A stretch of DNA of 64,000 nucleotides from positions 124,001-188,000 of the forward strand of contig NZ_CAMYKO010000006.1 of NCBI RefSeq assembly GCF_947259025.1. The letters run 5' to 3'. Below the pieces are notes generated by a model. That model worked only from the letters and a program-made list of their open reading frames with translations. It ran no database searches and was not told where the DNA came from. The translations under genes were made by a program, and so were the position numbers. Source of the DNA: an uncultured Methylophaga sp. Lineage in GTDB: Bacteria > Pseudomonadota > Gammaproteobacteria > Nitrosococcales > Methylophagaceae. Of this stretch, positions 18,201 through 26,301 are shown in pieces. Numbering within the stretch: position 1 is the stretch's first letter; the number at the start of each line of letters is the position of its first letter.

Positions 18201-19574
18201 GTGAAAATTACCGTAACCGGAACAGGCTATGTAGGTCTTTCCCTGGCAGTATTACTGGCTCAACATAACGATGTCACTGCTCTGGACATTGATGCCCGCA
18301 AAGTCGAACTGATCAATGATGGCGTGTCACCCATATCCGATGCTGAGATCACCGATTTTCTCAACAATAAACCTCTCAGACTGAGCGCTACGCTGGATAA
18401 AGAACAGGCATACCGTGACGCTGAGTTCGTGATTATCGCGACACCCACCGACTATGATCCTGAGACCAATTACTTCAATACGGATAGTGTTGAAGCAGTG
18501 ATTGAGGATGTGCTTCATTTTAACCCAACAGCGACAATGGTGATTAAATCTACGGTTCCAGTGGGGTATACCGAATCCATCAAGAACACATACACCCACC
18601 ACCATTTTTCGCCCAAATTCAGCAGCTTTTCCAAACAAACAGCACGTAAAAAGCTACATGCTCAAATGACAGAGAATGGCGCCAGTGAGGATAAAGCTGA
18701 ATCATCGCCGGGAAGTCAGGTCTGGAACCTTGCCACACAGCTCCAGCAGAAACTGACCAATTCTGGCGTGGATTCAGATTACAACGAGCGTTTTCAACAC
18801 AAACAGCCCAATATTATTTTCTCTCCAGAATTTCTGAGGGAGGGCAAAGCCCTGTTCGATAATCTCTACCCCTCAAGAATTGTTATTGGTGAGCGGAGTG
18901 AACGTGCAGAAATCTTTGCAAAACTGTTGACGCAAGGCGCGATCAAAGCAGATATCCCGGTTTTGTATAGTGACTCAACTGAAGCTGAAGCCATCAAGCT
19001 TTTTTCAAATACCTACCTGGCAATGCGTGTCGCTTATTTCAATGAATTAGACAGCTATGCAGAGACACACGGACTCAACACCCGTCAGATTATTGAAGGC
19101 GTAGGCCTTGACCCACGGATAGGCGCTCACTACAACAATCCGTCTTTTGGCTATGGTGGCTACTGCCTGCCCAAAGATACCAGACAATTGCTGGCCAACT
19201 ATCAGAACGTGCCGAATAGCCTGATAAAAGCGATTGTCGATGCCAACACCACCCGCAAAGACTTCATCGCTGATTCAATCATTAAAAGAAACCCCAAGGT
19301 CGTTGGCATCTATCGACTGGTCATGAAGTCAGGTTCTGATAATTTCCGTGCGTCTGCCATTCAGGGTGTCATGAAGCGCATCAAGGCCAAAGGCATAGAG
19401 GTTGTTGTTTATGAACCGGTGCTGGAAGAAGACACCTTCTTCCGCTCAGCTGTGATCAATGACCTGGAAACCTTTAAACAAAAAGCGGATGTTGTGCTGG
19501 CTAACCGGCTCACGGATGACATTATGGATATCAGAGAAAAGGTCTATACGCGTGATCTTTTCGGTCAGGATTGA
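18201..19574 (+). CDS. ugd: UDP-glucose 6-dehydrogenase with an internal insertion
   Basis: 457 residues from GTG 18201; E. coli Ugd has 388. The Rossmann motif [12 protein letters not shown] (7-18), the catalytic Cys322 in [10 protein letters not shown] and the C-terminal [15 protein letters not shown] agree closely with gammaproteobacterial Ugd. It oxidises UDP-glucose to UDP-glucuronate with two NAD+. Residues 129-203, between VGYTESIK and NIIFSPEF, are an insertion of roughly 70 polar residues; it includes FSPKF, echoing the FSPEF that follows it. Stands alone between repeats and glmS. Confidence 0.94.
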
Positions 19575-21709: not shown

Positions 21710-22660
21710 ATGAAGAGATTTGCTCTAATTGGTGCCGCTGGCTATATCGCTCCCCGACATTTGAAAGCGATCAAAGAAACAGGTAATACCTTATCTGTGG
21801 CAATGGATGTGAACGACTCTGTCGGCATCATGGACAGTCACTTCCCTGAAGCTGAATTCTTCACTGAGTTTGAAGAATTCGAGGCCTATGTTGAGGATCA
21901 GAAACTTCAGGGCAATAAACTTGATTACATCGCCATTTGTTCGCCCAACTATTTGCACGCACCGCATATGAAATATGCACTGAAAAATGGCATTGATGTT
22001 ATCTGCGAGAAGCCCCTGGTGCTCAACGCATCTGATATGGATGTGCTGGAACAGTATCAACGACAATACGGCGCTAAGGTTAACTCCATCCTGCAACTCA
22101 GGCTGCATCCAGCGATACTGGCGCTCAAAGAAAAAGTTGAAAAAGCCCCCGCTGATAAAAAGTTTGATGTTGACCTCACTTACATGACATCCAGAGGTAA
22201 GTGGTACTTAAAGTCCTGGAAGGGTGCCAACGAAAAATCCGGCGGTGTGGCGACTAATATCGGTGTTCACTTTTATGACATGCTGCACTTCATTTTTGGC
22301 AAGATCACTAAAAATGAAGTCCATTATCGTGATGAAAAAACCTGCTCAGGCTATCTGGAATATGAAAAAGCCCGGGTTCGCTGGTTCTTATCGATTGATG
22401 CTAAAAACCTACCGGAGAATGCTATTCAAGGTGAGAAACTTACCTACCGTAGTATCACCATAGAGGGAGAAGAACTGGAATTTTCTGGTGGTTTCACCGA
22501 TTTGCATACACAAAGCTACCAACGGATTCTTGACGGCAAAGGTTACGGCATAGAAGAAAACAGAGTTGCCATTGACACGGTTGAATCCATTCGGACGGCA
22601 CCTTTAACGCCAGCAACAGATAATGCCCATCCTTTACTTGAAAAAGTGAGCCAACAATGA
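21710..22660 (+). CDS. wbpB: UDP-GlcNAcA 3-dehydrogenase (Gfo/Idh family)
   Basis: 316 residues. N-terminal [18 protein letters not shown] and [28 protein letters not shown] (with the EKP motif) mark the oxidoreductase family; the [12 protein letters not shown] and [15 protein letters not shown] segments are typical of WbpB. It oxidises C3 of UDP-GlcNAcA, so WbpE can aminate it. Starts 9 bp after wbpA and overlaps wbpD by 4 bp. Confidence 0.92.
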
Positions 22661-23235
22661 GCTATTACCAACACGAAACAGCTATTGTCGATGAGGGGGC
22701 TCAAATAGGCGATGATTCCCGTGTCTGGCATTGGGTGCATGTTTGCAGCGGTGCCAAAATAGGGCGCGGTGTGTCTCTGGGACAAAATGTCTTCGTTGGT
22801 AACAAGGTGACTATCGGCGATAGTTGTAAAATCCAAAACAATGTTTCCGTCTATGACAATGTCCACCTGGAAGAGGGCGTGTTCTGTGGCCCAAGCATGG
22901 TTTTCACCAATGTGCATAACCCCAGGTCACTGATTGAACGCAAAGACGAATACCGCGATACCCTGGTAAAAAAAGGGGCGACCCTAGGTGCAAATTGCAC
23001 CATCGTCTGCGGCACAACCATCGGCGAATTTGCTTTTGTCGGTGCCGGCGCCGTCATCACCAAAGATGTTAAACCTTATGCGCTGATGGTAGGCGTCCCG
23101 GCCAAACAAATCGGTTGGATGAGTGAGTATGGTGAACAACTGGACCTGCCGCTAAGCGGTGAGGCTGAAACTACCTGTCCACACACGGGAGAGAATTATC
23201 AGCTTAGTGATGGCAATCTCTCAAAATTGACATAG
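22657..23235 (+). CDS. wbpD: UDP-2-acetamido-3-amino-2,3-dideoxy-glucuronate N-acetyltransferase
   Basis: 192 residues of left-handed beta-helix hexapeptide repeats (about residues 10-150), with [17 protein letters not shown] and [29 protein letters not shown] as in WbpD/WlbB. It N-acetylates the 3-amino group to give UDP-GlcNAc3NAcA. No WbpI-type 2-epimerase is visible in the window, so the gluco form may be the one used. Confidence 0.93.
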
Positions 23236-23259
23236 AGAGCGTTTCGCAGAAATGACTTG

Positions 23260-23287
23260 CCACGGAAGGCACGAAAAGACACGGAAG
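23260..23287 (+). repeat. CCACGGAA-type repeat, left flank of the GxxExxY gene
   Basis: CCACGGAAGGCACGAAAAGA followed by CACGGAAG, ending five bases before the ATG of the next gene. The inverse form (TTCCGTGG) occurs on the other side of the gene. Confidence 0.75.
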
Positions 23288-23291
23288 TTAA

Positions 23292-23654
23292 ATGCAGGAA
23301 GAAGACCTTACATACCGGATTCGCGGTGCTGTTTTTGAAGTCTACCGCCAACTCGGCCATGGCTTTCTGGAGAGCGTTTATCAAAAAGCTTTGGTTCACG
23401 AGCTTGAGATGCTGGGCATTGGCACCGATTCAGAAGTGCCACTGAATGTCAGCTATAAAGGCCAGGTGGTGGGTGAGTTTCGAGCAGATATTGTTGTGGA
23501 AAGCAGGGTGTTGATTGAGTTGAAAGCTGTGAAAACATTGCATCCAGCCTATGAAGCGCAAGTGATTAATTATTTAAAAGCAACAGGATTCAAGGTCGGA
23601 TTGCTTGTTAATTTCGCAAGGCCCAAAGCGACGGTCAAGCGTTTGGTTTTTTGA
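23292..23654 (+). CDS. GxxExxY family protein (PD-(D/E)XK nuclease-like)
   Basis: 120 residues. The signature GFLESVY (GxxExxY) follows RGAVFEVYRQLGH, and the C-terminal FRADIVVESRVLIELKAV has the D...E-x-K pattern of a PD-(D/E)XK nuclease fold, matching the small family PF13366/TIGR04256. Its biological role is not established to my knowledge. The gene interrupts wbpD and wbpE and has repeats of one type on both sides, suggesting arrival as a unit. Confidence 0.9.
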   Translation: MQEEDLTYRIRGAVFEVYRQLGHGFLESVYQKALVHELEMLGIGTDSEVPLNVSYKGQVVGEFRADIVVESRVLIELKAVKTLHPAYEAQVINYLKATGFKVGLLVNFARPKATVKRLVF

Positions 23655-23684
23655 GCGGTTTATTTTACTGGCAAATGATACGAG

Positions 23685-23708
23685 CCACGGAAAACACAGA
23701 ACCACACG
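23685..23708 (+). repeat. CCACGGAA-type repeat, right of the GxxExxY gene
   Basis: CCACGGAAAACACAGAACCA followed by CACG; a degenerate copy in the same orientation as the one at 23260. Confidence 0.6.
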
Positions 23709-23815
23709 TAAAAGAATCTGTTGTTATCGTTTTTTGATTTTAGTTAGAGAAGATGCGCGGAGTATGTAAGGGACGATGTTGGAAAAAATAAAACAGCCTT
23801 ATTCAATAAATATGA

Positions 23816-23907
23816 CTTCCGTGCATTACCGTGGATTCCGTGGCATAAAACGGCAAACTACGTTATGAATAATTTTCAGTGTATTTCAGTGTCCTTCCGT
23901 GGCAAAA
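23816..23907 (-). repeat. Two TTCCGTGG-type repeats before wbpE
   Basis: Copies at 23816-23845 (CTTCCGTGCATTACCGTGGA...) and 23877-23907 (CAGTGTATTTCAGTGTCCTT...CCGTGGCAAA), inverted relative to the copy at 23260. The intervening 23709-23815 shows no gene. Confidence 0.7.
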
Positions 23908-23923
23908 AATTGAGTAAATAACC

Positions 23924-25078
23924 ATGCAATTCATCGACCTCGCCGCCCAACAAGCCCGAATAAAAGACAAAATAGACGCCAACATCCAGGCCGTGCTTGC
24001 TCATGGTAAATACATCCTCGGCCCTGAAGTCAACGAGTTGGAAGAAAAACTCGCAGCCTATACAGGTGCAAAATACTGCATCTCAGTAGCTAATGGTACC
24101 GATGCACTGCAAATCGCCCAAATGGCTCTCGGCATTGGCTTTGGTGATGAAGTTATCGTGCCGGGCTTCAGTTACATAGCAACGGCAGAAACACCCGCTG
24201 TACTGGGAGCTAAACCGGTTTATGTTGACATTGATCCGGTCACATTCAACATTGATCCTTCAAAAATTGAAGCAGCTATTACTCCCAAAACCAAAGCCAT
24301 TATTGCCGTATCACTCTACGGCCAATCTGCTGACTTTGATGCCATCAATGCGATAGCAAAAAAACATAACTTGGCAGTTATTGAAGATGGGGCACAAAGC
24401 TTTGGTGCCACATACAAAGGACGTAAATCCTGCAACCTCTCTACGATTGGCTGCACCAGCTTTTTCCCCAGTAAACCCCTGGGTTGCTATGGCGATGGTG
24501 GTGCTGTTTTCACTAATGATGAGGAGTTGGCAAAAGTCATTAGACAAATCGCCCGTCATGGACAGGACAAGCGCTATCACCATATTCGTGTCGGTATCAA
24601 CAGTCGCTTGGATACCATGCAGGCCGCGATTTTGTTACCCAAACTCGAAATTCTTGATGACGAAATCAAACTACGCAATCAAGTAGCGGCAAGATATACA
24701 GAATTGTTGAGTGCCACAGAAGAGCACGAAAACGCTCAGAAAGATATCAATAAAATTTCTTCCGTGGATGTCATTGGTTTCCGTGGCAAATTGACAACAC
24801 CATATATCGAACCACACAACACTAGCGTCTGGGCGCAATACACGATTCGTAGTGAAGACAGAAATGCACTGCAAGCCAAGCTGAAAGCCGCAGGTATTCC
24901 AACAGCAGTCCATTACCCCATACCGCTTAATAAGCAACCGGCAGTTGCAGATATTAATGCAACTCTTCCTATCGGTGACAGAGTCGCTGAAGAAGTGATT
25001 AGTTTGCCAATGCATCCTTACCTGAGATTAGAGGATACTTCCGGTATCACTGCAGTTGTGTCGGGTTTTGAGTGGTGA
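23924..25078 (+). CDS. wbpE: UDP-2-acetamido-3-keto-glucuronate 3-aminotransferase, with a repeat-derived insertion
   Basis: 384 residues, DegT/DnrJ/EryC1/StrS PLP-dependent family. The cofactor-binding Lys lies in TSFFPSKPLGCYGDGGAVF, and RIGAH-like substrate residues follow (RVGINSRLDTMQAAIL, HYPIPLNKQPA). It aminates the 3-keto sugar made by WbpB, using glutamate. About residues 264-290 (HENAQKDINKIS...GFRGKL) look inserted before TTPYIEPHNTSVWAQY; the DNA there (24756-24794) contains the TTCCGTGG repeat found outside the gene. Activity may persist, since the insert sits in a loop before the C-terminal domain. Confidence 0.9.
   Translation: MQFIDLAAQQARIKDKIDANIQAVLAHGKYILGPEVNELEEKLAAYTGAKYCISVANGTDALQIAQMALGIGFGDEVIVPGFSYIATAETPAVLGAKPVYVDIDPVTFNIDPSKIEAAITPKTKAIIAVSLYGQSADFDAINAIAKKHNLAVIEDGAQSFGATYKGRKSCNLSTIGCTSFFPSKPLGCYGDGGAVFTNDEELAKVIRQIARHGQDKRYHHIRVGINSRLDTMQAAILLPKLEILDDEIKLRNQVAARYTELLSATEEHENAQKDINKISSVDVIGFRGKLTTPYIEPHNTSVWAQYTIRSEDRNALQAKLKAAGIPTAVHYPIPLNKQPAVADINATLPIGDRVAEEVISLPMHPYLRLEDTSGITAVVSGFEW
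24756..24794 (-). repeat. TTCCGTGG-type repeat inside the wbpE reading frame
   Basis: TTTCTTCCGTGGATGTCATT followed by GGTTTCCGTGGCAAATTGA. Its end TTCCGTGGCAAA-ATTGA matches the intergenic copy at 23895-23912 (TTCCGTGGCAAA then AAATTGA). It keeps the frame open. Confidence 0.7.
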
Positions 25079-26301
25079 ATCTAAAAAATGTTATACGGAA
25101 TATTTCTTTCCGAGAAATTGGAACCGTTGCATTTGGTGCAACAATTTCTCAAATACTGATCGTTGTTTCAATACCTTTACTAACAAGGTTGTATCCACCC
25201 GAGAACTTCGGCGCATATTCAATCTATACCTCAGTGATCGCAATTATCTCGGTTGTATGTACCCTCAGATATGAATTGGCCATACCAATCCCTAAGAGTG
25301 AATTGAAAGCACACTACTTGATGGTTCTGTCTCTGACTTCCACCATTTTAATTTCTTCACTTACATTTTTTATGGTGTTGGTTCTGCAAGTTTTAGATGT
25401 TCTGCCAACTTTGATGTCAGGGGTTATATGGCTTTTACCTTTATCAGTTTTAATCGTAGGACTTTATCAGGTACTAACATACCAGCTAATAAGGCAAAAA
25501 AAATTCAAGGCTTTGTCAAGATACAGAGTTACACAATCAATATTCATTGTGGTGTTTCAACTAGTTTTATTTAAGTTTTCTCAACTTGGCCTTGTTGCAG
25601 GCCAGACACTTGGTCAAACATGCTCAATGTTAATGCACAGGGATAAAATTATAACCCATAAAAAAAACAGGCTATCAATTAGGCGATTAATATCTGTATC
25701 AAGAGAATTTAGAAAGTTTCCATACTACTCACTGCCAACAAGTCTAGTTAACAGTGCTGGTCAGCATCTGCCGAGTTTGATTATCGCTGCCGTGTTCGGT
25801 GCAAAATCTGCAGGTATATACTTCTTAACTACCAAATTGGTCAGTTTACCAATCAGGGTTTTAGGTAGTGCAGTTTCGAACGTATTTATAGCCAATGCGA
25901 GAGAACAAAAAGAAATAAATAACCTTAGAAAGTTTTCGCTTAATTACTTAGCCATACTAATCTTTATCATATTCCCCGTCGTCGTCATAGCGACATTTTT
26001 TGGTGAGGGCCTTATTACTCTCATGCTGGGAGATGAATGGAGTGGGGCCGGAGAAGTTCTTAAATGGCTAATTATCATAGGAGCGTGTCAGTTCATTACA
26101 TCGCCTATAGGGCAAATCCTCATGATAAGAGACAAACAAGAAACAGGACTTTTCTGGCAAGTCATCTTATCAACCTTGAAGATCTGCGGCCTGATGATTG
26201 GTGCGTATCATGATGACTTTATTCTTGGAATTATTTGTTACTCACTGTTAGGTTCCGCGGGCTACTTAATTTTTCTTATGGTATCTATAAAAAATGCGTA
26301 A
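25072..26301 (+). CDS. wzx: Wzx-like polysaccharide flippase
   Basis: 409 residues from GTG 25072, overlapping the wbpE stop. About ten to twelve hydrophobic segments over the whole length and an N-terminus (FGATISQILIVVSIPLLTRLYPPENFGAYSIYTSVIAIIS) typical of the PST/MOP oligosaccharide flippases. It probably moves the undecaprenyl-linked repeat unit across the inner membrane. It is the first of the AT-rich genes of the locus. No second candidate transporter (ABC type) is present. Confidence 0.82.
   Translation: MVNLKNVIRNISFREIGTVAFGATISQILIVVSIPLLTRLYPPENFGAYSIYTSVIAIISVVCTLRYELAIPIPKSELKAHYLMVLSLTSTILISSLTFFMVLVLQVLDVLPTLMSGVIWLLPLSVLIVGLYQVLTYQLIRQKKFKALSRYRVTQSIFIVVFQLVLFKFSQLGLVAGQTLGQTCSMLMHRDKIITHKKNRLSIRRLISVSREFRKFPYYSLPTSLVNSAGQHLPSLIIAAVFGAKSAGIYFLTTKLVSLPIRVLGSAVSNVFIANAREQKEINNLRKFSLNYLAILIFIIFPVVVIATFFGEGLITLMLGDEWSGAGEVLKWLIIIGACQFITSPIGQILMIRDKQETGLFWQVILSTLKICGLMIGAYHDDFILGIICYSLLGSAGYLIFLMVSIKNA

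Follow-up and report, generated by a model that had tools for sequence, protein, structure and literature searches.

A predicted GxxExxY nuclease gene enclosed by inverted word arrays between wbpD and wbpE: a candidate REPIN-like mobile hairpin element

We have analysed a 64 kb stretch of DNA, hereafter the window (G000:C6:124001-188000), from an eight-contig genome of 2.7 Mb; in it, a small gene enclosed by inverted repeats separates wbpD and wbpE. In our preferred reading, to which we assign a probability of roughly 0.58, the region is a REPIN-like mobile hairpin element whose nuclease recognises the element's own arms. As read from the sequence, an inverted pair of arms, in each of which some three 7-nt words of the form CRCNRAN follow one another at a spacing of mostly 8–10 nt, surrounds a small PD-(D/E)XK protein gene; the gene-less form has only a short loop between its arms. 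That the whole unit and the gene-less copies are mobile is well supported by sequence comparison because empty sites, dispersal and nesting are all observed. The nuclease is the probable motor, as suggested by its placement inside the arms, the matched descent of gene and arms, their type-specific co-occurrence and a conserved active site. The arms would be extruded as a hairpin or cruciform, the nuclease would recognise the arm words and nick or cut there, and repair or replication would copy the unit into a new site, often within another hairpin, at the 3' end of a gene or between genes. The nuclease would serve gene-less copies in trans, as RAYTs are proposed to serve REPINs.

A broader proposal, made tentatively and at somewhat less than even odds, is that such units may form a new class of mobile element, with members in at least the window's phylum and Bacteroidota, in which the motor is a Cas4/Hjc-like PD-(D/E)XK nuclease of ∼120 residues instead of a transposase. 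This nuclease would recognise the inverted arms, perhaps folded into a hairpin or cruciform, by their three spaced 7-nt words, the protein would set both word and spacing, gene-less hairpins would be mobilised in trans, and dispersed repeats of the CACAGAG, CGCAGAT and CACGAAG types would be MITE-like offspring. We found no earlier description of the element in the open literature, nor any occurrence there of six of the array strings. The GxxExxY family gains a testable role from these observations and dispersed hairpin repeats gain a candidate partner enzyme. If the nuclease does move them, a class of bacterial mobile elements would be built on the Hjc/Cas4-like nuclease fold, and the pairing of word and protein could shed light on the evolution of specificity; the copy within wbpE shows that such elements also remodel proteins.

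Arrangement of the element and predicted properties of its protein

In the window, the outer left arm (23259..23287, + strand; units CACGGAA-CACGAAA-CACGGAA with start-to-start spacings of 9 and 10) is followed by the GxxExxY gene (TIGR04256/PF13366; 23292..23654, + strand), by a nested gene-less hairpin with its left arm at 23684..23711 (+ strand; CACGGAA-CACAGAA-CACGTAA) and its right arm at 23817..23845 (- strand), by the outer right arm (23875..23905; CACGGAA-CACTGAA-CACTGAA on the - strand) and, further along, by an eroded gene-less hairpin lying in frame inside the wbpE coding sequence (24713..24789; left arm, eroded, 24713-24741; right arm 24757-24789). The host site is formed by a wbpD-like acetyltransferase with Pfam hexapeptide repeats on the left (22657..23235, + strand) and, on the right, by the wbpE-like DegT/DnrJ/EryC1 aminotransferase that carries the in-frame copy (23924..25078, + strand), the wbp names being those of an earlier note on this DNA. 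That note's description of a GxxExxY gene with inverted repeats between wbpD and wbpE is borne out, paired three-word CACGGAA arrays enclosing the gene. Two corrections apply: one + strand CCACGGAA (23685) stands on the gene's right-hand side, and further repeats are found inside wbpE (24713-24789), beyond the region described.

CCACGGAA occurs six times in the window, always within 23260-24786, against an expectation of 1.95, and none of 100 dinucleotide shuffles reached six. A scan of the 64 kb for chains of at least three 7-nt units returned two, 23261-23286 (+) and 23875-23901 (-), with units starting at 23261, 23270 and 23280 on the + strand and at 23901, 23891 and 23881 on the - strand; 20 base-shuffled windows, of each of which one strand was scanned, gave no such chain. 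The outer arms match perfectly across 13 nt (23257-23269 / 23893-23905), and 23258-23293 is 78% complementary to 23810-23845 over 36 nt. Elsewhere in the window, a sugar-nucleotide dehydrogenase (18201-19574) has a long, odd, polar stretch at about residues 130–205 that may be an insert; the scan found no word array in it.

The 120 aa product of the GxxExxY gene scored far above the family cut-offs in profile searches, with 145.5 bits against 35 for TIGR04256 and 140.3 bits against 22 for PF13366 (PDDEXK_3), the latter being its only Pfam match at E≤0.001; no integrase, transposase or recombinase domain was found by Pfam. The AF2 model (pLDDT 94.9) contains the PD-(D/E)XK core, and its closest folds include SSO0001 (Foldseek E 5.1e-5; VIA-align Z 10.6), which we take to be a Cas4, Hjc (2wiw, Foldseek E 9.6e-4; 1gef, VIA-align Z 8.0) and also lambda exonuclease. 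A specific likeness to Hjc was rejected, Z values of ∼8 being common to restriction enzymes (SwaI 8.2) and Wolbachia CinB/CidB chains (8.3–8.4) in VIA-align. The search for sequence relatives in the PDB gave none that was convincing (best E 0.41). Among 109 family members, E27 is conserved in 107, D66 in 106 and E76, K78 and Q90 in all 109, Y94 falling within the same range of 106–109. Both the core fold and the E / D / ExK active site of the superfamily are thus present in the model, which agrees with the profile matches and with the earlier identification of a PD-(D/E)XK-like small protein, and we predict that GxxExxY proteins are minimal PD-(D/E)XK nucleases with a conserved active site.

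Substitution patterns were obtained for the ten of 18 chosen gene pairs with measurable dS, dN/dS being 0.06–0.16 in nine and 0.34 in one; dS was saturated in the other eight, including the far-apart pair L017-L020 (pN 0.63), and the L017 gene carries a stop. The gene is present in 55 of 340 sampled class genomes, and the 11 gene-bearing genomes of the genus have one or two full genes each. Phage origin was considered and rejected: 50,697 phage records gave no match to GxxExxY and phage protein families gave weak matches only. Matches were found in eight of 72,556 plasmid records, all below 60% identity, and PADLOC returned weak matches to Cas4 and AbiEii only. No reported function of the family was found in the open literature, in the accessible parts of which the term itself appears only in passing.

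Inverted arrays at other loci and filled or empty sites

Repeats of the same form stand at the borders of other GxxExxY genes, which was one of two findings whose absence the earlier note had named as fatal to its proposal. The 109 loci compared, nearly all from the window's phylum, comprise 18 from 58 relatives (after two more rows, fragments lying on the L022 contig, were left out), eight from named genomes, 50 from the phylum (the best-scoring 30 and 20 chosen for taxonomic spread), 27 from the class and six hand-picked from genomes already known to contain arrays. Inverted arrays of at least two words were found on both sides of the gene at 80 of 109 loci, at 75 of 103 after omission of the hand-picked six and, by coincidence, again at 75 of 103 after proteins at least 90% identical were dropped. 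At least three words stand on both sides at 59 of 109 loci. Arrays were missing on at least one side of 29 of the 109 genes, 20 having one on one side only and nine on neither. Windows 700 nt farther out, available for 97 loci since the flank was too short at 12, contained no both-sided arrays, and among 316 other ORFs at these loci only 7 had both-sided arrays, three of the seven in wbp clusters that hold further copies. A word-free inverted-repeat score pointed the same way, reaching at least 12 at 47 of 74 loci (two more were dropped for short flanks) and at none of 68 pairs taken 600 nt farther out or of 74 base shuffles. Swapping of upstream and downstream flanks among loci was also tried as a control and set aside (128 of 650 pairs scored at least 12), being uninformative because loci of one lineage share arms.

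What is general is the inverted-array architecture and not CCACGGAA itself, the word differing by locus (CACAGAG, CGCAGAT, CACGAAG and others). Two of the 80 both-sided loci have arms unlike in their last letter, one of them (L015) being a CGCAGAT unit within CACAGAG remains. Outside the window's phylum, CACAGAG-type arms of three words flank a Bacteroides plasmid copy (L330) on either side. It is the only one of five plasmid copies inspected from other genomes with both arms by the rule applied to the 109 loci; the other four, three of them from further phyla, do not have both, and in three of the five there is an arm on a single side, an isolated word or nothing. By the same rule, no both-sided arrays were found at the Calditrichaeota and Bacteroidales loci L031 and L033. 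By eye, a Fusobacteria plasmid copy (L329, CP102406.1) has a direct, not inverted, repeat, CAGATTTAATCCGTGTACCTAT, close to the gene on both sides.

Empty sites, the other finding on which the proposal of a mobile or self-spreading unit had been staked, exist between wbpD and wbpE, inside wbpE and between dhaK and dhaL, and the proposal therefore survives on both counts. Of 29 other class genomes with a wbpD match, 24 have wbpE next to wbpD. Arrays are absent from 23 of these 24 and the gap is at most 25 nt in 18, one of which is an overlap; it measures 3 nt in L066 and 0 nt in L065, which by wbpE identity are the closest of the array-free genomes. The same site holds a gene-less pair in L067 (G307) and the same GxxExxY gene, at 77–78% identity, in L026 and L027 (Billgrantia/Halomonas), and more copies lie at wbp gene borders in G307 and in Halomonas/Billgrantia. 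The copy within wbpE adds ∼22 residues relative to L065 and L066, which lack it, and is shared by our genome with L026, L027 and L067; the other wbpE sequences listed are shorter there too, except that L075 has its own different insert. In L078, a different palindromic repeat, CCTGAGGTATCGAAGG-like, occupies a wbpD-wbpE gap of 128 nt, so that the gap may attract hairpins in general.

The convergent genes dhaK and dhaL provide a second site, filled at 11 and empty at 10 of 21 loci in 20 genomes of the genus; at one of the filled loci (L108) the contig ends ahead of dhaL. At the ten empty sites the stop codons overlap by 4 nt (seven), abut (two) or lie 3 nt apart (one), and the filled sites carry either of two element types, CACAGAG or CGCAGAT, with the gene in both orientations. 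CGCAGAT units are nested inside the remains of CACAGAG arms in L094, L103 and L106. On the dhaK tree the filled and empty states require at least four changes, or seven when three states are scored, and the sister species G017 and G006 carry different element types. Ahead of dhaL, L093, L095 and L096 carry a gene-less unit that L106, L107, L109 and L112 lack. Homologous sites are thus found both filled and empty, as for a mobile element. No convincing target-site duplication was seen by eye at dhaK-dhaL or wbpD-wbpE, where the flanks are too diverged for exact junctions, or at the copies in our genome.

Matched descent of word and protein, and the gene-less copies

Array words follow the protein tree. 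A tree of 75 array-bearing proteins was used, which is built on few columns and in which many forks are weak. On it, the word's last letter changes between G and not-G once, compared with a mean of 21.1 and a minimum of 15 in 500 shuffles; scored with four states it changes five times (shuffled mean 23.4), and letters 2, 4 and 5 change 14, 17 and 13 times (shuffled means 23.2, 25.8 and 22.7). Spacing, taken from left arms of at least three words, is mostly 8-9 with G-ending words (31 of 41; (9,10) in six, (9,11) in three and (8,10) in one), mostly 9-10 with A-ending words and mostly 10-10 with T-ending words. The two genes of our genome fall in separate clades, each with its own word, and three word types within one genus also track protein clades. 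Residue 93 is N in all 25 proteins with not-G words and S or T in 53 of 55 with G words, giving two lineages: QxxN-Y, whose words end in A, T or C at a spacing of mostly 9–10, and Qxx[ST]-Y, whose words end in G at mostly 8–9. Residue 93 was considered as a specificity determinant and rejected; it switches a single time on the tree and is hence a marker only. These results show that gene and arms are inherited as one matched unit. Recognition of the arms by the protein would be the natural reason for this, and common descent of a linked unit without recognition could also account for the match. The earlier suggestion that the nuclease-like product could be involved is supported, the further step to the nuclease as mover being one that we infer.

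Gene-less copies are dispersed in our genome, where the pattern CCACAGAG-N1-3-CACAGAG has 34 matches, 17 per strand, and its reversed control none. Inverted pairs of 87–288 nt, 12 in number, account for 24 of the 34. Loops of ten of the 12 were compared and are unrelated, save that three contain nested CGCAGAT hairpins and that a single match of 16 nt was found, so that the gene-less copies appear unlike internal deletions of one parent. Those inspected are mostly intergenic, with 6 of 14 between convergent ORFs by crude ORF calls. Hairpins of different families are nested in one another in this genome, and in L290, L295, L299 and L300 CACAGAG units enclose another palindromic repeat, GTCATTGCGAGG ... 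GCAATCCAG. CGCAGAT hairpins are also present, yet the genome's only two genes carry other words. A search for CACGGAA word pairs found real copies in the wbp cluster only, and the CACGGAA family therefore probably reached this genome together with that cluster; the class-wide search for exact CACGGAA arrays returned no match here because these copies have diverged.

Across 24 genomes of the genus, arrays occur in 13, the gene in 11 and both in 10 (p 0.0013, uncorrected for relatedness). By type, CACAGAG arrays occur in all six genomes with a CACAGAG-type gene and in 7 of 18 others (p 0.016), a Fisher test that ignores relatedness and counts the element's own arms as matches. Exact CACGGAA arrays were found in 22 of 340 class genomes, apparently the same 340 as in the gene count, with up to 530 matches. 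Any GxxExxY gene accompanies them in 7 of the 22, against 48 of 318 array-negative genomes, a difference that is not significant (p 0.065). That 15 of these 22 have no TIGR04256 gene at E≤1e-10 is the strongest contrary result and weakens the case for the nuclease as sole motor. When gene type is taken into account, gene-less exact CACGGAA arrays occur in four of the six genomes whose gene is of CACGGAA type and in 1 of the other 27 (p 0.0017), a post hoc comparison tallied by hand on the 33 of 55 gene-bearing genomes with typed arms. In this Fisher test, which ignores relatedness, G307 (words CACGGAC/A, gene-less pairs beside the gene) was scored as CACGGAA-type and positive, and G217, whose single match is the gene's own arm, as negative. 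Array-rich genomes without a TIGR04256 gene at the same threshold include G302 (98 matches), G195 (50) and G107 (41), whose pairs are short hairpins of ∼60–90 nt in the regions inspected. In G011 (L097, G011:C17 and G011:C75) right arms recur every ∼217–238 nt in places, a pattern of tandem growth of nested hairpins.

Alternative explanations and known systems

The arrays might be mobile by other means, whether by replication slippage or template switches at palindromes or through some unrelated trans-acting enzyme, with GxxExxY a passenger that repeatedly invades their loops, perhaps as defence or addiction cargo. The class genomes with arrays and no gene, the CGCAGAT hairpins of our genome without a CGCAGAT-type gene, the tandemly repeated arms of G011, the weak PADLOC matches to Cas4 and AbiEii and the presence of a different small protein, PF05635 (S23/IVP), within strong inverted repeats at 24 of 28 loci are all consistent with this account. 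Against it stand the close tie between protein clades and arm words, also for three types in one genus, the active site kept in nearly all copies and the agreement in type between gene and dispersed arrays, and we consider the account unlikely. A stationary cellular nuclease, encoded by an ordinary chromosomal or defence gene and using the arrays as binding or operator sites, would suit the one or two full genes per genome in the genus and the predicted Cas4-like fold. The Rpn nucleases offer a precedent, having once been called transposases and later been reported as anti-phage toxin-antitoxin systems (PMC10327210). Operator sites would not account for the empty sites, the nesting, the inverted arms at either side of the gene or the dispersal of gene-less copies, and we find this explanation scarcely probable.

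Pairing of the arms could instead take place in the transcript, hiding or excising the gene as in the intervening sequences (IVS) of 23S rRNA, with spread through an RNA intermediate. The layout is the same, with a small gene occupying the loop between paired inverted repeats, wbpE tolerates its in-frame copy, and in the Coxiella IVS three tandem heptamers, GACAGAT, stand before the S23 gene (PMC4990558). Against this, a DNA-type nuclease is what we predict the protein to be, the gene stands in either orientation at a single site and Rfam has no match to a known RNA family in 22600-25200 at E≤1; an element acting at the RNA level therefore seems to us very improbable. Chance or an assembly artefact we regard as negligible: short repeats can arise randomly and several source genomes are fragmented, but both-sided arrays at 80 of 109 loci contrast with 0 of 97 control windows, and named genomes and one-contig genomes such as G307 agree.

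The preferred reading, a mobile hairpin element with its own nuclease, places the unit by analogy of working beside REPIN-RAYT systems and not within them, because its partner is not a Y1 transposase. RAYTs are Y1/HUH transposases, whereas Pfam assigns the present gene to PDDEXK_3 only; the arms here are three spaced words, the gene lies inside them and gene-bearing units vary in presence between species. Shared with REPINs (PMC3116915) are hairpin-forming inverted pairs, mostly extragenic, with many gene-less copies and a type-matched partner gene, all of which we find here. Like MITE/IS pairs, gene-bearing and gene-less versions have terminal inverted repeats in common, but no transposase or recombinase domain is found and the loops of gene-less copies are mostly unrelated. 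Rpn (recombination-promoting) nucleases, around which no flanking arrays are known to us, belong to another Pfam family (PF04754, transposase_31), to which the GxxExxY protein has no match at E≤0.001. They are likewise nucleases linked to DNA mobility (PMC5350276). Rickettsia palindromic elements, presumably other sequences, resemble the copy in wbpE in inserting in frame into protein-coding genes (PMC10969869); the present elements differ in having a candidate partner gene and in that the copies inspected in our genome are mostly intergenic.

The 23S rRNA IVS with S23 (PF05635) also encloses a small gene in inverted repeats. The element described here differs in that it lies outside rRNA, between wbpD and wbpE, encodes an unrelated protein and has words spaced 8–10 nt and not head-to-tail heptamers, and our genome has no PF05635 match at E≤1e-8. 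At the PF05635 loci themselves (L144-L173), the inverted-repeat score was at least 12 at the 24 loci mentioned above and in 1 of 25 control pairs, two loci being dropped. Because these genes also lie within inverted repeats and heptamers stand at the Coxiella gene, small genes inside inverted word arrays may be a wider phenomenon. By eye, the arms of these S23/IVP four-helix-bundle genes are mostly head-to-tail heptamers whose sequence varies by locus.
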